Assembly: GCF_020360975.1 (NCBI RefSeq)
Contig: NW_025408667.1
Coordinates: forward strand, 7,254,001-7,318,000
Reading direction: 5' to 3'
Length of the DNA: 64,000 bases
From: Hirsutella rhossiliensis
Lineage: Eukaryota; Ascomycota; Sordariomycetes; Hypocreales; Ophiocordycipitaceae
Shown here: one piece after another, positions 1 through 58,030 of the stretch
Layout: each line of letters begins with the position of its first letter
How positions within the stretch are numbered: the stretch's first letter is position 1
Made by a program: the position numbers and the translations under genes
The notes under the pieces: generated by a model
The model's database searches: none
Told to the model about the DNA's origin: nothing
Seen by the model: the letters and a program-made list of their open reading frames with translations, nothing else

Positions 1-355
1 CGTAGGCGGGACTGAAGGGCGGCTGCGTCGGTTGGGGAAGGTCGGTAAAGGACCACCCACAGGAGGCGTAGCAACGAATGAATAGTGCTACCCTGTATCT
101 GGTTACTCGCAACGCCTGTTGGCGCCACGCGGCAAATTGGGCTAGGATTCGGTAGGGCGGCTGCCTGAAGATGGGAGGAAAGCACCTTGATAAGGAATGA
201 CTTGCCTGTGCCACCACCACCATCAACGTGAAGAAGGATTTGAGTAGGATTTTGCGCCTGGAAGTGACCTATGAATGTGTCGTACACGAGCCGTTGTTGT
301 GGGTTCAGCTCATCACGCCAGTGAGGGCCAAGGACCTCCACATTGTTGGCTACGG
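1..355 (-). pseudogene. Helitron Pif1-like helicase, N-terminal part (cut by window edge)
   Basis: Minus-strand frame beginning ELNPQQRLVYDTFIGHF and containing a perfect Walker A motif, VDGGGGTGKS (codons across 198-224), the nucleotide-binding loop of Pif1/RecD-type helicases fused to Helitron Rep domains. The helicase unwinds DNA during rolling-circle transposition. Only the first 110 or so residues lie in the window. Whether the rest is intact cannot be judged. Confidence 0.85.
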
Positions 356-487
356 GTGGCTAGCGATAAGGTCTTTCCAGTAGCCATCTCGAAGCTCCGG
401 ATAAGTACCCACATGCCGGGACCAGTCGTAATTGACGTCGATATCGCGGTGGCCAAGTATGTCAAGGTCTTCCTGGGTAAGGGGTGG

Positions 488-1375
488 TCAGGTAAAGGGC
501 GGCCAGGCGAATCCAGTCTTCGTCATCAAATTCTTCCTCCACAGGCAGAGCCTCGTATTGATCCTCTTGAGGCTGTAATCGAGCCTCACTTGGCTGGCCG
601 TAATGGTCATCATCGTGACTGTGATGCTGCCAACAATAGGAGAAGGCCTGAACGTGGAACTAAAAAGCTGGCCGTCGAAAGTGAGGAGCTCATCGAGCCG
701 GCGATGTGGGTGATTTAAAGTCAGCTTTACACGGCAGTAGTCTGGCCACTGCTGGCCTTCTGGATCAGCCTGATAGCGAGGAAAGTAAACCAACACACGG
801 GGCCTGCCGTGGACGTTGCCTGGCTGCCATTGCTTCCACTTGGAAGGGTCTCTAGAGCGGAAATTCCAGAATTTGAGGAAGGAGACGTAAGTGAGGTCCG
901 TTAGAGCTTCTGGGCGTTGACTGTACTTCTCGTAGACGTTGGGTGCCTCATCAACCTCATCGCCGTCAATGCGGAGGTAGCGGGAATGCCTATCAGAATT
1001 ACGGCAGTCAACGTATAGGCAGGTACGTGAACCCTCCTGTAACGGCAGGCCGAGGAGCAAGTGGCAAACCTCCTGCTTCGAGTAATCCCGCTCAGAAACT
1101 AGCTGATTTAGTAGCTTTGACGTAAAGGAAATCAGGGGGTTGTGGTCCTTAACCCGGGGCATCAGGGCCTTCCCAATCTGGGCAAAAGAATCGCTCTTCT
1201 TTTCTGACTTGGAGCAGTATTTTGCTGCGTAGTCGATCACCTGCTGTAGACTCGTGCAGGGCGAGACATCTGTATTGGCTAGCCACGCAACGGTAAGCAA
1301 GCGGTTATAGTGGTTAATCTGGCCATCGTTCCGCGCCCCTAAAGCTCCAGTGCTTAGAGTGAGGAGCCTTGTCAA
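488..1375 (-). pseudogene. Helitron Rep catalytic-tyrosine region and Rep-helicase linker
   Basis: About 295 codons in one frame. The Rep tyrosine motif YAAKYCSK (1209-1232) matches the Y..KY..K signature in which the Tyr residues attack DNA during rolling-circle replication. It is preceded by an HYNRLLTVAWLANTD block typical of these proteins. Downstream the frame ends at a stop next to a CCC run (488). In the shifted frame the text continues as EDLDILGHRDIDVNYDWSRH, a conserved pre-helicase block. One further shift near 350 is needed to reach the helicase. Confidence 0.85.
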
Positions 1376-2095
1376 GGGAGGCTAGTAGGCGCTGGCCGTG
1401 AGGAAATCCGAAGCGGCACTCCATCTGCTTGGTATGCTTGCTGAGGTGCATACAGTAGTTGTTACAGTGGTGGCGTTGCACGCGGTTGACTATCATCGAT
1501 AGGAATTGAACGGTAAGGGGGTGTTGCAACAGATTAATGATCAGAGGGTTTCCTTCTCCGGGTGCCTGTATGCGCCGAGGCTCCGGGTTGATAGCAGATA
1601 TGTAATATCCCCAGATACGGGCGAATCGCTCTCGGGACCGATCATTGTCAGGATCCAAGTCTGGGTGGCCACTTAGCCAATATAGGCCATGGTGGTGACT
1701 GGAACCCCTGCCCTGCCACTCGTACCGACCCCAAAAGTCCGTTAGGTTGAACTTCCGCTTCAGGACAATAGCCTAAGCAATGTATAGCGCTTATGGAAGT
1801 GGTAAGCGGCGATGTGGGCGTTGTCTCGCAGCAGTTGCCGGGACAGAGCAATCCGCGCCGCCTCGGGAGCTGCTTGCCACTCGTCGAATCGAGGCATATG
1901 ACGGTATAGGGATTCCCAGTGGTAATCAGCTGCACTTACAGTAGCGAAGAGGCCGGGCCTGCCTAGATTATAGGCATATGCTTCCAACTCCTTCCTTTGC
2001 TTATACCAATACGGTCGGGTTCCCCTGATTACCGCTGCTTGGCGCGTGATCGACTGGATCAGGGCCTGAGCCTCCGGCTCGTCAGGCTCAGCCAT
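1314..2095 (-). pseudogene. Helitron Rep domain with HUH motif
   Basis: Continuation of the transposase in three overlapping frames (1760-2095, then about 1640-1790, then 1314-1658). The minus-strand text WGRYEWQGRG...HHHGLYW contains the HUH metal-binding motif, with the His codons at 1686-1697. An ARIWGYY block follows. HUH histidines hold the divalent metal used for single-strand nicking at the element ends. At least one frameshift lies near 1780 and one near 1335, each a single base, with protein similarity continuing across them. Confidence 0.85.
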
Positions 2096-2103
2096 CGCCT
2101 CCT

Positions 2104-3033
2104 CTAGGTCAGCGCGTGTAAGGGTTGGCGGCGGCTGTCGCGTTGCCTGACAAAGTAGTCACTTCGCTTTCGGACCTGCGCGCGTAACAGCGTGTTGAGG
2201 GCGACGAAAGGCCACGTCTTATGGCGGGCAAAACGTCCATCACGCCATCTCATCGCATGGCCAAGGTAGTCCTGGTACGTGATGCTCCGTAGGCGAGGCT
2301 CCACGAAGTCGGCCTTGCCGTCAGGGTAGAGGGTGGGGAACGCGAGCGTTAACAGCGGCTGGGAACGGTTGAACTCGTTGATGGGGGTCCTGCGAATGGA
2401 AGGCAATGGCATCTGGTGGTGAGCCTGCGCGCTACGCGGCATGTACTCCAGATCAGCCATACGCTCAGGGTCAGGGGTACCGTTGAGAAATCTAGACTGC
2501 AAGGCGTTCAATTCGGTATCGGTAACCTGCAAATTCGGGATCGCTGATGCGTCGGCATCGCTAGGATCCTCATCCATAGCCTCCTCAACGGGGCCTTGGG
2601 GGACCTCGCCGTCAGGTATGTCAGCCACTTGGCTTGCAATGGAACCCACTATACTTCCATCAAGAGGAAGCCGGTGCAGGCGATCCTGGCTCACGACAAT
2701 ATCGCGATAGCCCGGGTGGTGGCACTGCAGGTAATGCAGCCAGGTCAATAGGCATGAACGGCGTACCCGGAAATCGCGAGCAAACTGTTGCTGGAAGTGA
2801 GGGTCGCCTTCCATATTAGGAGGCCGTAGGAGCACGATATCTAGCTCCTGCGGTAGCACTGGGAGCTCTTCAAATAGCCTACCAACGTTGCGAAGAAAGT
2901 GGACAACGTGGCCTCGATATTTGTATTGAGCGCCGCGCACTTGTAGGACCTTGACGTGTACGTGAACCCTAGCAATGAGCATCTCCTCGACCATCGTTAG
3001 ATCAGGTAGATTGCCGGGACTTCCCGAAGTCAA
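2104..3033 (-). pseudogene. Helitron_like_N core domain segment
   Basis: About 310 codons of uninterrupted frame carrying the conserved Helitron N-terminal core: a TMVEEMLIARVHVHV stretch at the start, the QVRGAQYKYRGHVV block, and the diagnostic LLTLAFPTLYPDG and DGRFARHKTWPFVALN blocks near the end. These blocks are characteristic of Helitron_like_N in fungal and other Helitrons. The segment is joined to its neighbours by one frameshift at each side (near 3025 and near 2140, the second in a CCG/CCA repeat). No RIP-type stops. Part of the rolling-circle initiator protein. Confidence 0.88.
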
Positions 3034-3860
3034 GGTTATTCGCGGCGCTAAAGAAGTAGGGCTCGTTAGGGGCTTTCTTCCTGTCTCGACCGATGCAGCG
3101 GCTGCATATTTTTAAGCGGTTTGGCTTCATATCAAACCAACGCTCCTGGCAGCGAGTGCAACTGTGCATCTTGTCGTCATTCAGGGCGGTATAGAACTCC
3201 CGCACAAGGGCCTGATCTTCCTCATTGAGGGCAGGCAAGTTAAGGTCACCTGTAAAAGGCGGATCAATACTCTGATCAAACAGTCGCACTTGAGGCTGTG
3301 TGCCTTGACGAGTATACCGGCCGCGGTGATGACCCTGTGGCAATAATGAAGGAGTGGTAGGAAGCGATTCCTGTGGTATAGGAGTGCCTTGCACAACAGG
3401 AGCTGTAGAAGCACTGTCTTGAATCGGCGTGCCCAGAACTACTGTTGGCAGGCCAGGGTAGGGGATAGGGAAAGTCCTCGACAATGCTTGGGGTAGAAGG
3501 CCTCAGCGGAGGTCTAAGCATTCTCGAGGGCGCGGGCACCAGGCAACGGAGTAAATCAGGCGTCGTAGGCCGTAAGCCGTTCGCAGACGCAGGTATTGGT
3601 GCAGTCCGCCTTGGAGGCGTCAGGTTAGCTACTGCGTCGGTCCTCTTCGTGGCTCTGCGTGGCGATGGCCTCGAGGCGATATTCCGCATGGCGGCAAGGA
3701 CGGCTCGGGATTCGGTTAACCGCTCCCTTCGGCGTGCCCTACAGTTGGCACACTCTCTTGTAAACTTTGTAGGGTCCTTGACGCTTCGAAACTCGACTTC
3801 GGGCAGGTCTTGCTTGCAAGTACGACAGTTGCGGACTGCCGGGGGTGTATCGTTCTCCAT
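3002..3860 (-). pseudogene. Helitron ORF, N-terminal zinc-ribbon segment (frameshifted)
   Basis: Start of the Helitron protein at an ATG (3858-3860). Residues C12, C15, C37 and C40 form a CX2C-X21-CX2C zinc ribbon, followed by a basic Arg-rich stretch and a Pro/Thr-rich linker. The frame changes near 3450-3484 and continues into a second Cys pair set (CTRCQERWF ... CSRC), a signature I associate with fungal Helitron proteins just before the Rep domain. This second frame ends near 3025, where another single-base shift is needed to enter the core domain. There are no in-frame stops other than those created by the shifts. Likely role: DNA or partner binding by the transposase. Confidence 0.75.
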
Positions 3861-4210
3861 CTGACCGTATATATATCCACCTCTTATCCACTTTGACTGC
3901 TAGATATCGCTCGGGCAGGAGGCTTTGCGAGGGCTTGGTGATGCTAGCAGAGCTGTCTGACGGTTGAGAGGTCCGAGACCGTGGTGGAGCTCGATAGGGA
4001 GTGTCTTTGAGGTAGTCGGCTCAGATCTGAATGATCTGGGAGGAAACTGCACTACCTGCCCGGGTAGGCCGGCTGCGGATGTGATTTGCGAACCTAGACA
4101 CCGTTAGCAACTCGATGGGTTCGACAGATTCGACGGGAAAGGGAAGTAGAAGCGTGCGTATAAACCAACAAATTGATTGCGTTGAAGAAAAGAACAACTG
4201 AAAGCTGTCG

Positions 4211-8070: not shown

Positions 8071-8711
8071 AAGTAACTATACCTTATATCGAAGGGTAAT
8101 AATCTTACGTATTATATCCTAAGGCAATATAGTAGCTCTAGAGTTAGTTAATCTAGCTTACTATATAGGTATATTAATAGTTATAATATTACTTAGAGTA
8201 ACGCGGTATTATACTAAATAAGAGCTTTTAACGTATAACGACCGGTATTATTCCTAAGGGATAAACCTACTAAGGGGTTTATATTAGTAGATATAATAGG
8301 GCGTGGTCTAAGTAATAATAAGTATATTACGTTAGTAATAAGTTAGAGGTTATAGACCGTAGACTATAACTAGGTAATTAAAATTAAAGATAGAATTATA
8401 ATAAAGATCTATATTAAAAGCTAGAGAGCTATCTATTTAAAGGAGTAAAAGTAAGTAGCTATATATACCTATAAAGACTATTATTAGATTATAGTCCTAG
8501 CCGTAATCCCCTTTATAGCTTACTATAGCTTACTTATAAGCTATACTCCTAAGTAGTAATCTATCTATATAAGGCTTACTTAGCTTATATATACTCTAGG
8601 TAAGCTAAGCCTAAGTAACTTCTCGTCCTAACTATTATTCTAAGCCGCTTTATTATATAAACGTAGCCGGCTCTCCTATAGCCCGCTAACTATAGTTATA
8701 ATATCCTTACC
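8070..8711. other. Leader/LTR region of Gypsy-D up to the junction with Gypsy-A
   Basis: No coding text recognised. It probably holds the 5' LTR and leader of Gypsy-D (minus). The junction at about 8712 is inferred because Gypsy-A becomes alignable to Gypsy-C (minus strand near 56740) from the text ccttagacgataaagaggac onward, and not before. Confidence 0.5.
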
Positions 8712-12600: not shown

Positions 12601-12979
12601 GCTTAAGCTAGGACTATAAAGTAGGTATAGCGGAGGGGGCAGTTATAGTAATATAAGTAATATAAGCGTAATAGTATAAGTAGAGATAAAAATAGCGTTT
12701 ATTATAAAGCGGAGCCCTTAAACTACCTAGGCCTATTCCTTATCATTATTATTATTATTATCTTTATTATCGTCGTCCTTATTAGCCTCCTCTTTCTTAT
12801 TAACGGCGGCGGCGGTCTCTAAGGCGCTAAGGCGGCCCTCTAAGCCTATAAGCTAGTTAGCGGCGGCGGTGGCTTTAAGGGTAAAGGGGCGGCGGCTAGC
12901 GGCGGCGGTAAGGGTAGCGGCGGTAGCGGAGGCGGGCATAGCTAAGGGGACCGCCGATAGGGCGACGGAGGTAGTATCC

Positions 12980-13033
12980 CTAGCGCCGGGTACGTTAGAG
13001 GCGGAAATAAGGGAGCGGAGGAGTAAGACTTAC
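12980..13033 (-). other. Intron 2 of Gypsy-A antisense gene (54 nt)
   Basis: Minus-strand donor GTAAGT (13028-13033), branch TCTAAC, acceptor GCTAG. Because 54 is a multiple of 3 the frame also reads through here. In Gypsy-C the intron is 55 nt and does not. Confidence 0.78.
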
Positions 13034-13326
13034 TTAGGTATAAGGCCCTATCGCTTAAGGGCGCGGAGGTTACGGTAGGCAGCGGCGGCGGCGGTAAGGC
13101 GCTTCTTAGTAGCCCCCCGCGCCTACCTATATAAGCCGGCCTTCTAAGCCGACGCCGTAGCGAGTAGGATAGGAGGCGCCGCCTTATAGGCGCGGCCGGC
13201 TCGCGCGTACTAGTAGTAGCTACCGCCGCGGCGGCGCCCGGCCTAGTCGGAGTAGTCGAGCTCCTATAATATATAACGTATATAGGGGGCTAAGCGGGCG
13301 GCGCCGGCTTATACTTAGCGCTTATA

Positions 13327-13379
13327 CTATAAGAGGTTAGCGGATAATATCTATTACGCTTACTTAACTATAGACTTAC
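13327..13379 (-). other. Intron 1 of Gypsy-A antisense gene (53 nt)
   Basis: Minus-strand donor GTAAGT (13374-13379), branch point GCTAAC, acceptor TATAG. Same position and length as intron 1 of Gypsy-C. Phase 0, joins ...P to YKR. Confidence 0.8.
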
Positions 13380-13845
13380 GGGGGTAGCGGAAATAGAGGC
13401 GGGGGCCGAGGGGCTAGGCGTTATAGGTAGCGGCGGGGACGGCGTCGTTACCTTAAGGGGCGACGTAAGAGCGAATAACGTAGTAGAGGCGGCGGCGGCG
13501 GCGGTAGGAGCGGTAGTAGCGGCGCGGGTAGGAGCGGCGGCAGCGGCGGAGTCGTCGTTAGCCACGGCTAGCGCGGCGTCGACGAACGACTCTATACGCT
13601 CTGAGAAGGAGGAGGTAAGAGAGGGAGAGGCGGATATATCTATCGCGGAAGTTAGTATAACGGAATACGGCCTCCTACTCTATAAGGCGTAGAACTTATT
13701 AGTTAAAGTTATTATTATTATTAAGGCTATTATTACTACTACCGCTATTACTATAAGTATACGTTAATAAAGCGGCCTATATAACTAAGAATAGACTAAT
13801 ACCTTAAGTAGAGTAGAACTTACTTATTAATACTACTATTATAGT

Positions 13846-32295: not shown

Positions 32296-32494
32296 TATAA
32301 GGGTATTTACCCTTTATATAGGTCTAGGTATTAGCTTAGACCTTAGCTAATAAGCGTTATAAGTTAAGGTAAGCCGTATATATAAATACGTATTTAGTAG
32401 TAGTAGGCGCGGCGTATAGTTAGATCCTATATAGCTTATTATTATAATATAATAGAAGGCACCTATAGTATAACCTTCTACCTACCCTATAATA
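32296..32494 (+). repeat. Gypsy-B 5' LTR
   Basis: 199 bp, starts TATAAGGGTATTTACCC (itself an inverted repeat) and ends CCCTATAATA. Contains a hairpin ggtctagg...(t)tagacc near 32320-32345, partly broken by RIP. Confidence 0.93.
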
Positions 32495-36800: not shown

Positions 36801-37800
36801 GGTAATAGCCTATAACTAAGCGGACTAAGATAAGTAGCTTCCTATAGCCTACATAGCGCTTAATAGTAGGTTAAACTTATTTATTAGTATATCCCCCTTC
36901 CTTACGTTATATAGGTTTAAACTACTATCGGCATAGCCTATTACTATAGATATAGGCGTAAAGCGCTACCTAGCTAGCTCCCTAAAAGGTAGGGCGTCTG
37001 CCTTTATATAGAAGCTATAATAAGTTTCGGAGTTCTACTAATCCTCGATAGCGTCTACCGCCTAAGACTAAGAGCGGTAGGCTAATAAGTCGCGGGATCC
37101 TATAGATAGGTTCGCGGTAGGGGATAAGGTCTAGTTAGACCTCTATAACTATAGGTCGACGAGGCTAAAGAAGAAGCTCGACTAGCTATACGCTAAGTAT
37201 ACGGTAAATAAGGTACTAAGTCTATAAACTATAGAGCTAGAGGGGCTACCCTCCGGTATCTATAGTACGATTAACGTTAACCTCCTTTATCGCGCCGCTA
37301 TAGACCCTTTACTAAGCTAAGAGATAGCGGATCCCTAACTAGCCGCTATCCTCGTTAAGGGGGAGGAGGAGTTCTTAGTAAAGGAGTTATAGGTAGCCTA
37401 TTAAAAGAATATAGGCCGCGGTAAGAGGCGCGTAGTCCTCGTTAAGTAGCGTAGCTACTAAGACCTAATATAGGAGCCGGCTTCTAAGTTTAAGGGCGCG
37501 GTAGCTCTAGATAGGTTTAAGGCCCTTTATAAGCTAGTAAAAGAAAGCAACGGCCTAGTAAGAGAAGCTACCCCCTTAGCGGTAAAGTAGCTAGTACCCT
37601 AAGACGTAAGGGAGACTACGCCCCGCCCTTAAGGAAGCGGCGGGGCACTAAGCCCGCGGCGGTCGCTACGCTAGTATAAGCTATAGGCGTATATTATAGA
37701 TACCGCGACTACGGATAATAAGTAGGGCGCACTTAGGTCGGCGGTAGTATAAATAAATCGTATTAGCCCTTATAAGCGCGCTTAAGAGCGTATAAACTAG
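33880..37800 (+). pseudogene. Gypsy-B pol with chromodomain
   Basis: Protease start AFIDEGY (33892-33912): D-E-G in place of D-T/S-G. RT: GGGLRFYVDY near 34700, DRYPLPL near 34760, YIDN (RIPed YIDD) at about 35010. Integrase zinc finger with HPGREGT-like text near 36290 and the CX2C text NYNIYS near 36380; core near 36450-36720. Chromodomain VLVKWRSY-like at about 37440-37490. The frame seems to continue towards 37850, where it would meet the 3' end of the antisense gene. Confidence 0.87.
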
Positions 37801-38043
37801 GCCTAGCGGGCCTTCTTCTTTAGTAGGGTCTCGACTACTAAACGGTTATCCTTATCCTCCTCCTTATCCTCCTCCTCGTCCTCCTCCTTAGTATAAGGCG
37901 CGGCCCCGGCCTCGAGGGCGCGGATCCGGCCCTCTAGGCTACCTAGCTAAGCAGCGACGGCGGCGGCGGCGGCGGTGCCGGTAGTAGTAGAGGCGGCGGC
38001 GGTAGAGGTAGCGGGGGCGGCTAGGGCGGCGTCGACGGTGCCC

Positions 38044-38097
38044 CTAAGAGAGAGAGAGTTAGCGCCGTAGAGAGTATAGGAAAGGGAGCTTACGTAC
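38044..38097 (-). other. Intron 2 of Gypsy-B antisense gene (54 nt)
   Basis: Minus-strand donor GTACGT, branch GCTAAC, acceptor CTTAG. Splicing gives PKGT..., aligned with PKDT... in A and C. Confidence 0.72.
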
Positions 38098-38387
38098 TTA
38101 GGCACGAGGGCGGCGCGCTCGAGGAACCGTAAGTTATAGTAGGCGGCGGCGGCGGCGGTTAAGGCGCGCTTAGCCTTATTCTAGTCCTTACCCGGCTCCG
38201 CGGCGCTCTAAGCTATAGTAGTATAGGTAAGGACGGGCGGCGTAACCTTATATATATAGCTAGCCCGGGCGCATAGGAAGTAGCTGCCCTAAGGGCGGCC
38301 GGCCTAGTCGGCGTAGGGGAGGGACTACGAGGTATACTATACGTAGGGGGAATCGCGGGTAGCGCCTCGGGCCACGGCGCGCTTATA

Positions 38388-38438
38388 CTAGTACGGGGAG
38401 TTAATAATACTCGCGAGAATAGGGGTAGAGGGGCTTAC
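38388..38438 (-). other. Intron 1 of Gypsy-B antisense gene (51 nt)
   Basis: Minus-strand donor GTAAGC, branch ATTAAC, acceptor TACTAG. Phase 0, followed by YKR as in A and C. Confidence 0.72.
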
Positions 38439-38949
38439 GGAGGAGGGCGGCGAGGACCTACGCTTATTATTATCGTCGTTATCGTCGGCGTTATCGCGGC
38501 GGCCGGTAGCGGAGAGCGTAGCGGGGGCGGCGGCGGCGCAGGCAGTAAAGTTAACGGCCGAGAAGCTAGGCAGCGGGTAGCGCGGAGCGGCGGCAGGCGC
38601 GACTAGGGCGGCGGGGGTAGTAGGTAGGGTAGCGGGCGAGGCGAGGGCGCGATCGACGAAGTCGTCGATCTTAGTAAAGAAGTAAGATAAGGCGGGGGAG
38701 GATATATTAAATTATTTAAATAACTAGCGGGGGTATAAGTTAGCTCGTATATAGGCGGCAGCGTATAGCTAGGCGCTAAGAGACTTATAGTTATAGTTAC
38801 GGCTACTACTACTAATAATAATAATAATAATATAGTTAAGAGGAAAGAGTAATAGGAGCGCTAGTAAGTTATTTACCTCCTAGCCGCGCGCCGAGGTATA
38901 GGATTAACGTTATAAGGGACCGCCTATAAAGAGAAGGGCGGGGACCTTA

Positions 38950-39148
38950 TATAAGGGTATTTACCCTTAGTATAGGTCTAGGTATTAGCCTAGACCTTAG
39001 CTAATAAGCGTTATAGGTTAAGGTAGGCTATATATATAAACGCGTATTTAGTAGTAATAAGCGCGGCGTATAGTTAGATCCTATATAGCTTATTATTATA
39101 ATATAATAGAAGGCACTTATAGTATAACCCTCTACCTACCTTATAATA
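38950..39148 (+). repeat. Gypsy-B 3' LTR
   Basis: Partner of 32296-32494, same length. Here the internal hairpin (38975-38996) is a perfect 8-bp stem, GGTCTAGG/CCTAGACC. Confidence 0.93.
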
Positions 39149-51072: not shown

Positions 51073-51261
51073 TACTATCACGGAGTAGGTAGAGGTATAC
51101 GTATAGGTGCCGTCTATAGGATAATATTAATAAGCTATATAGAGCTCTCCTATACGCGGCTAGCCCGTATATATATATACGGGATCCGGCCCTTCGTACG
51201 TAACTATATAGCTTAGGCTATAGCCTAAGCCTATAACCTATAATAGTTAAAGACTCTTATA
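51073..51261 (-). repeat. Gypsy-C 3' LTR
   Basis: 189 bp, partner of 57842-58030. In element orientation starts TATAAGAGTC. Includes a 20-bp perfect palindrome (51211-51230) centred on GCTATAGC. Retains tatcacgg where the other copy reads RIPed tattatag. Confidence 0.92.
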
Positions 51262-51564: not shown

Positions 51565-51617
51565 TATATAAAGTAGTATCCCCCCCTTTCTTCTTTCTTT
51601 CCTTCTCCTCCTTCTTT
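51565..51617 (+). promoter_or_regulatory. Promoter of Gypsy-C antisense gene (TATA box and pyrimidine tract)
   Basis: TATATAAAG at 51565-51573, then an almost pure pyrimidine tract 51579-51617, then about 87 nt to the proposed start at 51704. The same elements, in the same order and spacing, are found on the minus strand of Gypsy-A. Confidence 0.75.
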
Positions 51618-52081
51618 AACTATAGTAGTAGTAGTAATAAGTAAGTTCTACTCTACCTAAGGCGTTAGTTCGTTCCTAGCTATATAGGCCGCCTTATTAA
51701 CGTATACTTATAGTAATAGCTATAGTAGTAATAATAGCCTTAATAATAATAACTTCTACTAGTAAGTTCTCCGCCCTATAGAGCGGGAGGCCGTAATCCG
51801 TAATACTAACTTCCGCGATAGATATATCTACCTCCCCCTCCCCTACTTCCTCCTTCTCGGAGTATATAGAGTCGTTCGTCGACGCCGTGCTAGGCACGGC
51901 CGACGACGGCTCCGCCGCTGCCGCTGCTCCTGCCCGCGCCCCCGCGACCGCGCCTACCGCCGCCGCCTCTACCTCTACTACGCTAGCCGCCCTTACGTCG
52001 CCTTTCCGGGTAACGACGCCGTCCCCGCCGCCGGCTATAACGCCCGGCCCCTCTACCCCCGCCTCCGCTACTACTACCCCC

Positions 52082-52134
52082 GTAAGTCCGCTACCTAGCG
52101 AGCGTAGTAGCTATTTTCCGCTAACTTCTTAAAG
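52082..52134 (+). other. Intron 1 of Gypsy-C antisense gene (53 nt)
   Basis: Donor GTAAGT (52082), branch GCTAAC (52120-52125), acceptor AAG (52132-52134; TAG in Gypsy-A). Its removal moves the frame from exon 1 phase to the phase conserved with A and B. Confidence 0.8.
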
Positions 52135-52427
52135 TATAAACGCTAAGTATAGGCTAGAGCCGCCCGCGCGGCCCCCTATATACGGTGCGCGTCGTAGGAG
52201 CTCCCCTACGCCGACTAAGTCGGGCGCCGCCGTAGCGGTAGTTATTACTAGTACGCGCGTGCCGGCCGCGCCTATAAGGCGGCGCCTCCCGTCCTACTCG
52301 CTACGGCGTCGGCTTAAAAGGCTAGCGCGTACGGGTAGGCACGGGGGGCTACTAAGAAGCGCCTTACCGCCGCCGCCGCCGCCTACTATAATCTCCGCGC
52401 CCTCGAGCGCTAGGGCCTCGTCCCTAA

Positions 52428-52482
52428 GTAAGTTCCTCTTATCTAGCTCTTCTACTTCCGCTACTAACTCTCTTAGTACTAG
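52428..52482 (+). other. Intron 2 of Gypsy-C antisense gene (55 nt)
   Basis: Donor GTAAGT (52428), branch CTACTAAC (52461-52468), acceptor TACTAG ending 52482. The length of 55 nt breaks the unspliced frame, while the homologous 54-nt introns in A and B do not. Splicing gives PKDT in both A and C. Confidence 0.8.
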
Positions 52483-52929
52483 GGACACTGCCTTTATCGC
52501 CCTATTAGCGGTCCCCTTAGCTATGCTTACCGCCGCCCCTGCCGCTGCTACTAGCTGGGCCCCCCCCGCCCTTAGAGCCCCTAGAGCCGCCGCTACCGCT
52601 AACTAGCTCGCGGGCCTAGAGGGCCGCCTAAGCGCCTTAGAAAGCGCCGCCGCCGCTAATAAGGTAGAGGAGGATAACGAGGATAAGGATAAGGACGACG
52701 ATAAGGATAAGGAGTAGGTCTAAGTAATCTAAGGGCTTTGCCCTAAAATAAACGCTATTTTTATCTCCGCTTATATAATTACGCTCGCGTTATTATAACT
52801 ACTTACTCTACTTTACTTACTTTATAGTCTTAGCCTAGGCTATTATTAGTAGTCCGCTAGTTTATTATTCTCGTTTACTATTTTAAATAAGGCTTTAAAC
52901 TTATCGAGGGCTATAGTTCCCGTAAACTT

Positions 52930-55900
52930 ATATATAGGTTCCTATATAAGGTCGAGATACCCGTACTACTTAACGAGGACCTCCTAGCGTTTCCCCCTAT
53001 TAACCTTTTTCTAGCGCGCGGCCTATATCTCTTTAACCTTAAACTCGTCTTCTCCCTCTACCTTAATTATAGGCAGTTAAGCGTCCGCTACTTCTTATTT
53101 AGGTAGTAGGTTAAAGGAGGCTTTACGAAGAAGGTCTACGTTAATCTTATTATAGACCCCCGTTAAGAGACTATTAAGCTCTATAACCTATAGGCTAATA
53201 ACCCTTTATACTATAAACTTCGCGTATAGTTAGTTAAGCTTCTTTTTTAGTCGTGCTAACCTATAATTATAGAGGTCTAGCTATACCTTATCTCCTACCG
53301 CGAACCTATCTACTAGGGCCCTAGTCTTATTAGCGTGCCGCTCTTAATCTTACGCCGCGGCGGCTATCGCGGATTAGCAATAATCCGTAGTCTCTTATAG
53401 CTTTTATATAAATATAGAGGCGCGGCCCTCTAGTAATAAATTACTATACTACTCCGCTACTATATCTACGGTAAAGGGAACTAATAAGGGTAGTTCGAAG
53501 CTATATATTATAAAGAAAGGGGCTATCTTAATAAAGGTATATAGTTTACTATTTAACGTAAGTTAAGCTATAGGGAGCTACCGGTCTTAGTTTACTTAGT
53601 TATAGGCTACGATAGCCTATAAGTAAGCCTACGCTTCCTAGTTAACCCTTTTAGGCCCTTTATTAGTCTATAGGTAATATACTATACTAAGTAGCTATAT
53701 AATCTAAAGTAGCTAATATAGGTACTACTAAAAGTAGCTAGTTTAATTCGATCCCTTATCGCTTATAATAAAGGCTAGCTAGCTATATAAGCGGGCCTAG
53801 TATTATAGGAAGCGCTCTACGTAGGACTTTATATTTATAAATAGTATTAGCTTTAATACTATAGACTTACTAAGTCGGTCCTTAATTACCTATATATAGC
53901 GGTTACTACCCTTTATAAGTAAGAGGTCTATTATAAAGTCTATCTATATATACGTATAGAACTAGTCGGGTACTAAAAGCTACTTAAGTAGCCCCTTAAG
54001 CTACGCCCTTTAGATCTTTATACGGCCGTAGATATCGTAGTTATAAAGGAAGCAACGAACGTAGTACTATAAGAAGGGCTAGTAAAAGTCCCTCGTAAGG
54101 CTTACTACTATGCCTTATCTGCTTAGGTAACCTACGACGCTAGAGTTATAGATAAGTTAGACTAGCCTCTCTTAGAGCTCGTTCTATTCGTTTAGCTCTA
54201 GCGGTCCCTCTTTCTCCTTAGCTTCTATAGTATATAGTATGCCTAGTACCTATAGTCTCCCCCGCTAGCGTAGATACCCTTATAGGTCGATATAGTAGTT
54301 AGCTACCTATACCTTTAGCTTTAGCTTTAGATCTAGGCATCGAGCGCCGGACTTAACGGCGTAGTATATACCCTTATAGGTATAGTCTAGAGCCGCTATC
54401 CTATCCTATAAGCGTTAAAGGGCCTTATCTTAGAATACTCTCGCCGCGCGCGCCCTTAGGCCGGTCTATCCCTCCTCGCCGGACTAAGGTAAGGGCGCGG
54501 GGGGAAGCTTATTCGCTAGTACCGCGTCTTCCTCTACTAGGGAAGCTCCTATATAAGTCTATAGTGCTTCTTACGGGATAAGCTATAGATCCCGGGCCTC
54601 GATATCCGCTCCTATTAGCTAGTCCTAATCCCTCTAAGAAAGCGCGTTTAGGACCGCGGAGTCCTACCTAAGGCAGTACTTAATCGAGAAGTTAAAGCGT
54701 AAGAGATACTCCGCTTAGCGGGCTTACTGCTCTAAGAGGTACTAGCGAGTTATAAAGTACTCGAGGTTCCTATAGTCTATAAGAACCTTAAAGCTCTTAT
54801 AGCTCCGGAGCTCCGCTTACTATTGCTCGAGGTAGCTAATAATTACTAGTATCTCCTTATTATAAATAGCGTAATTCCGCTCTACTAAGGTTAGCTTATA
54901 GGAGTAGAACGCTATCGGTTACTTCCGCCTATCTACCTCCTAAGAAAGCGTTCCTTTAAGTACCTAGCCGCTATAGTCTACTTTAACTAATATAGACTAG
55001 TCGAAGTCTTACTAAAGTAGTACTAGGGCTTAAGAGAATAGGTCCTTAAGCGTATAGAACGCTCCTTCCTATATAGGCCCTTAGTAAAAAGCGGTCCGCT
55101 TCCTAGTAATCTCGTTTAAGGGCATTATAATATAAGAGAAGCCCTTAATAAATATCCTATAATAGTTCGCGAACCTAAGGAAGCTCTATACGCCTATCTA
55201 CGTAGTTAGGGCAGCTTAGTCCTAAATCGCTTAGATCTTTACGGGGTCCGCCTATATACCTACGCTTACGTAGATAATAAAGCCTAGGTACTTAACCCTC
55301 TTAACCCTAAATTCGTACTTATCTAGGTTAAGGTAGAGCCTATAAAGTTAGAGGCGCTCTAAGACCCTCCGTACTTTCTATATATAGTCCTTATAAGAGC
55401 CGCTTATATAGATAAGGATATTATCTATATATATAGAAGCGAACTTATCGAGGAAGTCTTAAAGCACGTTATTAATATAACGCTAAAAGGTAGCGGGCGC
55501 TCTTAAGAGGCCGAAGGGCGTTATAAGCTACTTAAATAAGCTATAGCGTATATAGAACGCTATCTTTTACTCGTTACCCTCTAAGATCTATACCTTATAA
55601 AACGCCTATTTTATATCTAGCTTCGTAAACTACTTTACCTTTAAAAGGTTATAAAGCGTATCTAAGATTAAAGGTAAGGGGTAGCGGTCTAGCCTCGTAA
55701 TTATGTTTAGGGCCCTATAGTCGTAATAGAACTATATCCCGCCCCTTAGTTTACGTATAAATAAGACCGGCGCTCTTACTTCGGAGCTACTTACTTAAAT
55801 AAAACCCTTATTTAAGAGGTCCCTTAGCGTCTTCTTTAGTACTAGTAGCTCCGCGTATAATATACTATATAGCGGTCTAAATAGTACAGGTAGTTCTTAC

Positions 55901-57830
55901 CCCTTCTTATCGGTATAGAGTATAATCTTATAGTCTACCCTTAGCTTATATAGGTTAAGCTTATCCGCTTCCTAGGACTTAAATAGTAGTAGGAGGTCGT
56001 AAAAGCGCTCTAGTATTTATTACCGTAGCTTAGAGGGCGACTTTAGCTTCTTTATCCGGAGGGCCTTATCGATATCCGCTAAGCTAACTACGTAGACCGC
56101 TACGTTAGCCGCTGCCTAGCCTTGCCCCTACTTTACCTATCGTATGGTTCCTATAAAGATAGAGGTAAGGACTTCTTATACTAAGTATAAAGCTTATACG
56201 CCTAGTCCTATACTTATAAAACCGTCGTTATAGCGGACCTACCGTTATGTAGGCCTAAACTATAGCTTCCTTTAGTATAGAACTAAGTATAACTCTATAT
56301 ATAATAACTAGGGTTTCCTAAGGATTAAGGGAAACTCTAGTTAAGGGATTATATAGGCTACGATAAGCTTATAGTAACCGTCGACCTCTATAGCTAGCTA
56401 TATAATACCCTTAATTACTATACCCTCTATTACGCTTAAGGCGCCCTTTACTCGCCTTAAGGCAATCTTTTCTACTAGTACTTATATCTCTCGCGTAAGC
56501 GCCTCGTTAACTATAGCGTAGTACTAGTAGCCCTTATCTATAAGGGCAGTAATAGGTAAGGAGTTATTAATTATAACCTATATTAAAGTAAGCTCCTCTT
56601 TTATATAAGCGGATAATTCTTCCTTCTCTTTTACTAGTATTAGTAATTAAGGCTCTAGAGCCTATCTTTACTCCGGAGCTACTTTTTTTCCTTTAAGCCT
56701 AGGGGGGCGGAGTCCTCTTTATCGTCTAAGGCGAGGAGCGGTTTTATCTTTACTACTTAAACCGCTATAGGCCGCTTAGCTAAAAGGAAGGGGTATTTTA
56801 ATATAAAGTATATAGATACTCCGTAACGTAGGCAGCGGCCGTTAGCCTTCCTTTTCCCGATTTCCTCGCTCGTTACTTACTTCGCCCGCTACTTAGAGTA
56901 TAGGGCGGTATAGGGGGTAGTCGACAGCGTCTTCTTACCGTGTCTAGCCCGGTCTATATAGGTAGCCGATATTAAGGTGTCCCTATCTATATCGATAGCC
57001 GGTTATTTATCTTATAAAGGGGCGGTAATCCCGTCGCTACTATACGGCGTGCGCTTATAGAGCTTCTAAAAACGCGGCGTCTACTTATAGCCCTAAGCTA
57101 CCTTTATTAACCGGCTTACGTACTCGCCATAGTTAATAGGTATAATTATAGGGATAAGTAGCTCTTATAGGGCTAGCGTAATTAAATTCTATAGCTATAT
57201 AAGCTTTACGCTATCTTCCTATACTATAGTCCCCGCTACCTATAAGAGCGTCTCTTTAAAATTAAGAAGGAATTCGCTAAAGGTTTATCTATCTCTCTAC
57301 TTAAGGGTCTATAGCCTATCTTACGCCTTCTCCCGCTCCTATACGTTACCGAACGTATATATAAGGTATTAAAAGAAGTCTTATAGGTCGCGTCTGCCCC
57401 TAGGGCCGCCCTTATCTTAGAATCCGGAGATCCGCCGTATTTAAGGCTTTAGTAGCGTATAGAAGAGCGAATACTACGCTATATCGCGATAGCTATTTAG
57501 GCCTTATTTCTCGTCGGTTATAAACTTTATCTATAGCCGGCTAAGGAAGAAGTAAAAGGACTCTAGCTTACCGTCCTAAGTCGGCTAAGGGAGCGGCTTC
57601 CTCGTCGGTAGTATCGCTACCGTAACTAGCGTTACGGAGGTCATAGGGGTTAAAGCCGGTCTTATAGACGGCTCCTTTAGTATAGCGAGAACCTCGTCCT
57701 TCTTACTAGCCGTCGCGCTTTTAATCGCTTCTAGGATAGCTACGATACTTCCTATCCGTCTAGGGAGGGGCGGAGTGCTTCCTTAAGGGGGAGGCGCCCT
57801 CTTTAAAGAGATATCTATTAGATCTATTAA
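52930..57830 (-). pseudogene. Gypsy-C gag-pol with chromodomain
   Basis: Minus strand. Gag homologous to Gypsy-B gag (for example the block around 57090). Knuckle C-L-R-Y-GVSI-Y-FILK-Y at about 56790-56841 (CX2CX4HX4C after RIP). Protease LIDKGY with D-K-G at 56530-56538. RT with YIDN (RIPed YIDD) near 55415, integrase about 54330-53480, chromodomain near 52950-53030 almost identical to Gypsy-A. RIPed throughout. Confidence 0.87.
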
Positions 57831-57841
57831 TTAATAGCTTA

Positions 57842-58030
57842 TACTATTATAGAGTAAGTAGAGGCGTACGCGTAGGTACCGTCTATAGGATAATATTAAT
57901 AAGCTATATAGAGCTCTCCTATACGCGGCTAGCCTATATATATATATATAGGATCCGGCCCTCTATATATAACTATACGGCTTAGGCTATAGCCTAAGCC
58001 TATAACCTATAATAGTTAAAGACTCTTATA
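57842..58030 (-). repeat. Gypsy-C 5' LTR
   Basis: 189 bp; palindrome at 57980-57999. Differences from the left LTR are C-to-T or G-to-A type. Confidence 0.92.

Follow-up and report, generated by a model that had tools for sequence, protein, structure and literature searches.

The window, i.e. the whole analysed stretch of 64,000 nucleotides from the 81.8 Mb genome of Hirsutella rhossiliensis, contains three copies (A, B, and C) of an LTR retrotransposon that, judging from the chromodomain-like C-terminus of its pol (recognised by reading the translation) and the LTR pairs of B and C, belongs to the Ty3/gypsy chromoviruses. In each copy a gene is located on the opposite strand between the chromodomain and the 3' LTR and converges with pol, as had been claimed in the initial annotation, whose coordinates hold. 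This antisense gene consists of three coding exons and two introns; intron positions and phases match in A, B, and C.

51073..51261, minus strand: 3' LTR of element C (partner 5' LTR at 57842-58030, 89% identity)
51565..51573, plus strand: TATA box TATATAAAG of the antisense gene, copy C, read from the sequence; a CT-rich stretch follows
51641..51713, plus strand: probable leader intron 1, copy C, from its motifs (GTAAGT ... ATTAAC ... TAG)
51762..51821, plus strand: probable leader intron 2, copy C, from its motifs (GTAAGT ... CTAAC/CTGAC ... GATAG)
51824..52081, plus strand: coding exon 1, copy C, low-complexity Ala/Pro/Ser
52082..52134, plus strand: intron 1, copy C, 53 nt, GTAAGT...GCTAAC...AAG, phase 0
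52135..52427, plus strand: coding exon 2, copy C, with Cys cluster, shared stop, and LTAAAAAY block; the best conserved exon
52177..52275, plus strand: Cys cluster, CX2CX6CX10-11CX2CX6C, read over less RIPed copies
52279..52352, plus strand: predicted RNA hairpin, shared stop located in the apical loop
52315..52317, plus strand: shared in-frame stop, TAA in window copy C
52428..52482, plus strand: intron 2, copy C, 55 nt, GTAAGT...CTAAC...TAG, phase 2
52483..52717, plus strand: coding exon 3, copy C, with LEGR..ALE heptads, acidic tail, and terminal stop
52747..52752, plus strand: AATAAA poly(A)-like signal, copy C, read from the sequence
52846..57600, minus strand: gag-pol of element C, C-terminus chromodomain-like, running towards the antisense gene (5' limit of gag approximate)
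12733..13637, minus strand: antisense gene of copy A (start position 13637; exons to 13380, 13326-13034, and 12979-12733)
13146-13144, minus strand: shared stop of copy A
37797..38705, minus strand: antisense gene of copy B (start position 38705; exons to 38439, 38387-38098, and 38043-37797; exon ends counted from translations, splice sites read directly)
38210-38208, minus strand: shared stop of copy B
32296-32494 and 38950-39148: LTRs of element B, with the flank duplication AGCGC

A target duplication at the LTR ends of element C was looked for and not found, and no LTR pair was found for copy A, which is truncated within gag-pol at 8704 (counterpart in C: 56737). The pol sequences of A and C are nearly identical (purine/pyrimidine class differences of 0-1.7% per 300 nt), unlike their antisense genes with class differences of 3-9%. 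A mosaic structure of A versus C in gag was considered and rejected, since copy A is merely cut off at 8704. The repeats are strongly RIPed: the observed/expected ratios of CA and TG amount to 0.01-0.06 in element pol and AT-rich DNA and to 0.03-0.21 in the antisense genes; in bases 1-4000 of the window they are about 1.

For comparison across the family, 62 gene rows were cut out, of which nine were dropped (duplicates of a window copy or of another locus, cut short, or badly broken), resulting in 53 aligned copies (11 A, 13 C, and 29 B). The introns of the window copies measure 53 and 54 nt in A, 51 and 54 nt in B, and 53 and 55 nt in C, and the reading frame is preserved in each of them, the 1-nt difference between A and C lying inside intron 2. 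The donor GTAAGT is present at intron 1 in 9/11 A and 11/13 C copies and at intron 2 in 11/11 A and 10/13 C copies, and the intron 1 acceptor AAG in 13/13 C copies; the intron 2 donors of B read GTACGT, GTATAT, GTGCGT or similar. As both B introns are multiples of three without stops, the assumption of splicing in B is founded on homology. In the alignment, the modal lengths of exon 2 (293, 293, and 290 nt in A, C, and B, respectively) and exon 3 (247, 235, and 253 nt) differ between the subfamilies by multiples of three; exon 1/intron 1 of B are misaligned and thereby shifted in it, the actual length of this B intron being 51 nt. Annotated H. rhossiliensis proteins use the same junctions (both in P0001, P0002, and P0004, the second in P0003; these are gene models, not cDNA). 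Upstream of the coding region, two leader introns, a TATA box (in the version TATATAAGG), and a CT-rich start region were read in three A and three C copies with low RIP. Leader intron 1 has the acceptor CAG in low-RIP copies (TAG in copy C), and leader intron 2 ends 2 nt upstream of the start codon, whose position (51824) is occupied by ATA in window copy C and by ATG in copy L044. The poly(A)-like signal and the pol stop lie about 100 nt apart in convergent arrangement.

The splice motifs are present beyond chance: within 51565-52735, GTAAGT occurs four times on the gene strand and not at all on the other (0.46 expected; 1/500 shuffles reached four), and the combination of donor, branch, and acceptor motifs occurs three times (0.14 expected; 0/500 shuffles reached three). 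When a C-type copy is compared with a B-type copy, the exon-2 proteins match with 81.6 bits in the frame of the gene and at most 42.7 bits in the five others; among the window copies, the corresponding values are 53.5 and at most 34.7 bits. With splice positions and phases being the same, this bears out the previous view that the diverged copy B carries a match of the A/C gene. That the frame is open says little by itself, since the DNA is GC-rich and one sense-strand frame is about equally open. A genome search with exon 2 yielded at least 150 matches for each of two queries, and exon 2 was located in convergent orientation within 1.5 kb of at least 84 of the 130 pol 3' ends closest to C; among the remaining 46 pol ends, gene DNA was detected at all eight that were examined, with an at least partial exon-2 protein match at seven of these; two of the eight (L059 and L065) exhibit a similar internal deletion of ~230-280 nt within the antisense gene. 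A coding gene opposite to gag-pol is found in most copies (at least 84/130 plus 8/8), as is the case for the antisense aORFs between pol and the 3' LTR (aORF-3R). Taken together, these sequence comparisons support a real, spliced, and family-wide antisense gene.

RIP leaves the purine/pyrimidine class of a base unchanged; class changes were therefore counted between the subfamilies. For B versus C, exon 2 revealed 14/97, 17/97, and 28/95 changes at codon positions 1, 2, and 3, respectively (p=0.024), and transversions at its positions 1+2 (31/194) are below those of the leader, introns, and 3' flank (157/515; p=8e-5); exon-2 positions 1+2 are likewise below noncoding DNA for A versus B (p=0.001). 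Exon 1 showed no constraint in B versus C (49/166). Positions 1+2 of exon 3 (22/146) are below noncoding DNA in the same comparison, and its position 3 is low too (15/74 or 15/75), so that the exon 3 signal is not clearly coding. Pooled over exons, the codon-position test was not significant (p=0.17-0.34). An omega-like ratio, calculated from transversions in single weakly RIPed copies (B against C and B against A), amounted to 0.57 and 0.66 in exon 2 (p=0.04 and 0.11, respectively), to 1.00 and 1.07 in exon 1, and to 0.74 and 0.99 in exon 3; pol has 0.24-0.27, and values of 0.60 and 0.79 were obtained for one sense-strand frame of exon 2. Comparison of A with C alone yielded no significant synonymous excess in any exon (omega-like ratio of exon 3: 1.61). 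Indels, counted singly in A and C copies against C, are multiples of three in 4/17 cases in exon 1, 1/1 in exon 2, 28/36 in exon 3, and 22/28 in the 5' flank; as those of the 5' flank are also mostly multiples of three, indels are no clean test of phase. The codon constraint on the antisense frame that the initial annotation had proposed to check by dN/dS between A/C and B was in consequence recovered for exon 2 and not for exon 1, and in exon 3 it was not position-specific. According to these counts, purifying selection appears to act mainly in exon 2; it is real but modest, and far weaker than on pol.

The encoded protein has six Cys positions in exon 2 (CX2CX6CX10-11CX2CX6C across the less RIPed copies). 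All six are Cys only if the B copies are pooled; A/C have five of the six (the sixth is Tyr in every A/C copy listed), and no single copy has all six. CX2CX6C...CX2CX6C is the spacing of Zn2Cys6 clusters; a match to the PF00172 profile was not obtained, and basic residues are lacking between Cys 2 and 3. A Pfam search of the antisense proteins revealed no domain above chance. An annotated protein (P0005) that matches GCR1_C and NDC10_II in the Pfam search fuses these domains to antisense exon 1 and is probably a chimeric gene model. Protein searches that needed shared 5-residue words (one of which scored the best 7997 candidates) detected no relatives outside H. rhossiliensis among their candidates, and a PDB sequence search returned nothing below E 0.64. 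The structure prediction of the Cys cluster (three sequences) reached a mean pLDDT of 52.7, a quality that does not suffice for a fold search. Exon 3 encodes LEGR..ALE heptads and an acidic tail, and the C-termini of the B-type proteins P0001 and P0002 read PPKKKARRA, with a basic KKKARR stretch resembling a nuclear signal. Based on composition (linker, Cys cluster, coiled-coil, acidic tail, KKKARR) and on analogy, the product would most likely act in the nucleus, where it would bind nucleic acid and regulate the element.

At codon 61 (A, C) or 60 (B) of exon 2, an in-frame stop is present in 53/53 aligned copies (TAG in 45, TAA in 8). Genome-wide, the A/C site with exact flanks was matched by 202 TAR and the B site by 31 TAR, with 0 CRR and 0 TGG at both (233 matches in total; the flank patterns are free of CA and TG, and copies with altered flanks are outside the count). 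The TAA version accounts for 26 of the 100 A/C matches listed and 4/31 B matches. Control Gln/Trp codons (six per copy in A and C, four in B) were kept as sense codons in 31/66 cases in A, 15/78 in C, and 6/114 in B; the B copy L030, with the highest CA and TG among the aligned copies, kept all four control codons, and the stop is still present. Independent RIP in each copy as the cause of the stop gives log10 P values of -3.4, -1.7, and -2.6 in A, C, and B, respectively, which are overstated since the copies share ancestry. The in-frame stops of the window copies are all TAA or TAG, and most of them are RIP products; the stop at codon 60/61 is common to all copies compared and probably is not one. 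Coding positions downstream of this stop, as judged by class changes, stay constrained: for B versus C, positions 1+2 differ at 13/74 sites in the rest of exon 2 (p=0.027) and at 22/146 in exon 3 (p=2e-4), both together being below noncoding DNA (158/521) with p=3e-5; for A versus B, the p values are 0.04 for the rest of exon 2, 6e-4 for exon 3, and 1.5e-4 together.

A further stop was observed at exon-2 codon 93 (52411-52413 in C), where TGG occurs in 7 of the 100 matches listed (of 128), in all cases after CGA or CGG (A-type); listed matches after CGC (C-type) all have TAG. The codon 93 stop of C would stem from a RIPed master or be a second candidate edited stop. As it is subfamily-wide in C while some A-type copies keep Trp, caution is advised for codon 60/61 as well.

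In the least RIPed A, B, and C copies, the shared stop is positioned in the apical loop of a long predicted stem (z of -6.0 in C, L044; -4.4 to -5.5 in A, L039, L041, and L042; -3.6 in B, L030), which is also predicted for window copy C (about -5.2 to -5.3) and is lost in more RIPed copies (B: L013 -1.9, L014 -0.9; window A -1.0; window B +0.5). When the gene was scanned, the hairpin window was the most extreme one in L044 and L039 and the fourth in L030, behind three at the LTR edge. A second strong hairpin window was observed at gene-row offset ~324-420, at the start of exon 1 (z of -5.65 in L044 and -3.84 in L039). L030 (B) and L044 (C) have 17 pairs at the same offsets, of which six are changed on both sides; folds as stable as the hairpin arose in 9, 1, and 1 of 1000 synonymous shuffles (B, C, and A, respectively), and 18/21 apical pairs of the C-type are formed in B, a number reached in 6/1000 shuffles. 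The A of the stop is located in a hairpin loop in 46/53 copies (in no loop in 7/29 B copies); as synonymous shuffles place it in a loop in 62-72%, little weight can be given to loop position by itself. The gene strand folds better than its complement in A/C but less well in B (-31.8 versus -36.7 for the opposite strand). The loop of the B fold, UUAGAGC, is seven bases long, has U in second and A in third place, and may by analogy be likened to U33-A34 of an anticodon loop, a point made for edited mRNA sites in a passage of PMC11169179; in the A/C fold, two weak pairs reduce the loop to three bases.

Fungal A-to-I mRNA editing, as outlined in PMC11087585, PMC11156358, PMC4817773, and PMC9600606, is the work of Tad2-Tad3 together with Ame1 and occurs commonly in the sexual phase of Sordariomycetes; it favours hairpin loops as well as U at position -1, and about 70 genes of F. 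graminearum have a UAG corrected by it; annotation software is described to invent introns that skip edited stops (PMC4817773), and the RIP gene FgRID is listed among the genes needing such stop editing (PMC11156358). The sequences UUAGAAG (A/C) and UUAGAGC (B) fit the preferences given in PMC9600606 at 5 and 4 of 6 positions, respectively, two of the matched positions being inherent in any UAG, and the gene models HRG_004121 and HRG_003835 place an intron over the shared stop. The shared stop and its predicted hairpin are consistent with the published preferences of stop-codon A-to-I editing in Sordariomycetes, editing itself being a prediction. DUF726 genes, the family of Ame1, are present at three places in the genome as no more than candidates for Ame1, and editing of TAA-type copies would give UGA. 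To our knowledge, H. rhossiliensis has no known sexual stage; RIP on this scale would imply one in the past of the species.

We propose that the antisense gene is a true accessory gene of this Ty3/gypsy chromovirus that would have its own promoter, be transcribed towards the pol end, and be spliced. Its introns presumably survive retrotransposition because they run backwards on the gag-pol RNA, the template of reverse transcription, and cannot be spliced there. The unedited message would end after the Cys cluster and result in a predicted short form, while recoding of the UAG at the hairpin tip would give rise to a predicted long form with coiled-coil and acidic tail; recoding would most likely occur by Tad2-Tad3 A-to-I editing in sexual reproduction, the stage of the RIP attack. 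As a whole, the explanation by a spliced accessory antisense gene with a short form by default and a long form via an edited stop appears quite possible, and we stop short of calling it probable. More speculative, and on the doubtful side, is the idea that the retrotransposon gates its accessory gene by the conserved stop, at which only the sexual-stage Tad2-Tad3 editing of the host would make tryptophan, with the full-length protein being formed when RIP threatens.

Alternatively, the gene could be real and the shared stop either its true end, so that a short protein of N-terminal part and Cys cluster is made, or a lesion inherited from RIPed masters, with the hairpin reflecting GC-rich Ala/Arg/Gly codons; we regard this as conceivable but rather questionable. 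Codon 93, with its C-type stop where some A-type copies keep TGG, demonstrates that one damaged master suffices, B alone (6/114 control Gln codons kept) fits RIP fairly well, and the loop position is frequent in synonymous shuffles. An inherited lesion or true end is, however, difficult to reconcile with constrained positions 1+2 beyond the stop in B versus A/C, with hairpin pairs altered on both sides, and with a stop common to A, C, and B, including L030 with all four of its control Gln codons intact.

It seems unlikely that the antisense transcript acts as an RNA that encounters the gag-pol RNA at its end and thereby enters into dsRNA/siRNA control, the frame being a leftover: the codon constraint in exon 2, the intron positions and phases, and the modal lengths differing by multiples of three argue against it, although the convergent layout with a poly(A)-like signal ~100 nt from the pol stop would suit such a role, a dsRNA/siRNA role for genes of this kind is discussed in part of PMC7264820, and exon 1 is without constraint and exon 3 without a position-specific one. 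We consider it very unlikely that the stop is bypassed by readthrough or by splicing of the intron 1 donor to TAG as acceptor, by which a form without the Cys cluster would arise. Indeed, TAG provides an in-phase AG, the annotated model HRG_003835 splices the intron 1 donor to it, and P0003 joins exon 1 in frame to the codon after the stop; annotators are, however, described in PMC4817773 to invent introns over edited stops, and a scan for in-frame introns that span the stop and have a YTRAY branch site was negative in 4/4 copies (intron length 40-130 nt, donor at most 130 nt upstream; the longer P0003 intron is outside this range).

The initial annotation knew of no comparable spliced antisense gene in fungal chromoviruses; as a claim of novelty this goes too far, as Boty of Botrytis cinerea is described to carry the antisense gene brtn (PMC7264820, PMC8365987) and a CHROMO domain in its gag-pol (PMC4227169). 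Like the present gene, brtn of the Boty-like retrotransposons of Botrytis cinerea/Sclerotinia (Zhao et al. 2011) is an antisense gene between pol and the 3' LTR of an element with chromodomain gag-pol, the two being compared by the description of position, orientation, and chromodomain, not by sequence or introns. The plant aORFs (Grande gene23, RIRE2, Retand TRP28, PvRetro13) correspond in position, orientation, and presence in most copies, and for Grande gene23 a promoter of its own and a nuclear location of the product are described; they differ in their plant hosts and other protein domains, Retand represents a non-chromovirus lineage, and the plant aORF passages of the two sources mention neither introns nor a shared stop (PMC7264820, PMC11963269). 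HBZ of HTLV-1 is named as antisense, nuclear, and near the 3' LTR in a passage of PMC11963269. HTLV-1 is a retrovirus and HBZ a bZIP protein; its likeness to the present gene is an analogy in the way of working only. HBZ is spliced and has the coiled-coil of a bZIP protein. With PUK1, CHE1, and FgRID of Fusarium/Neurospora, as described in parts of PMC4817773, PMC11169179, and PMC11156358, the present gene has in common the in-frame UAG with coding sequence on both sides, the hairpin-loop preference, and the introns set by annotators; those are host genes with RNA evidence, whereas here editing of a transposon gene is predicted from sequence. The splice structure across diverged subfamilies, the Cys-cluster protein, and the shared stop in a conserved hairpin are without parallel in the passages of the antisense-gene and editing literature consulted; transposons with edited stops were no target of these literature searches.

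Antisense genes have been known from LTR retrotransposons without being explained; the present one is spliced and has been retained by a single fungus in two pol lineages that have diverged strongly. The shared stop hints at when the antisense gene would be expressed. Should this stop be edited, fungal stop-codon editing would be exploited by mobile elements as well, with a timing that coincides with the RIP stage. In B, the TATA-like sequence is part of a palindrome, CCTTATATAAGG, on the inner border of the 3' LTR (38945-38956 of the window); the 3' LTR may therefore serve as antisense promoter in this subfamily.
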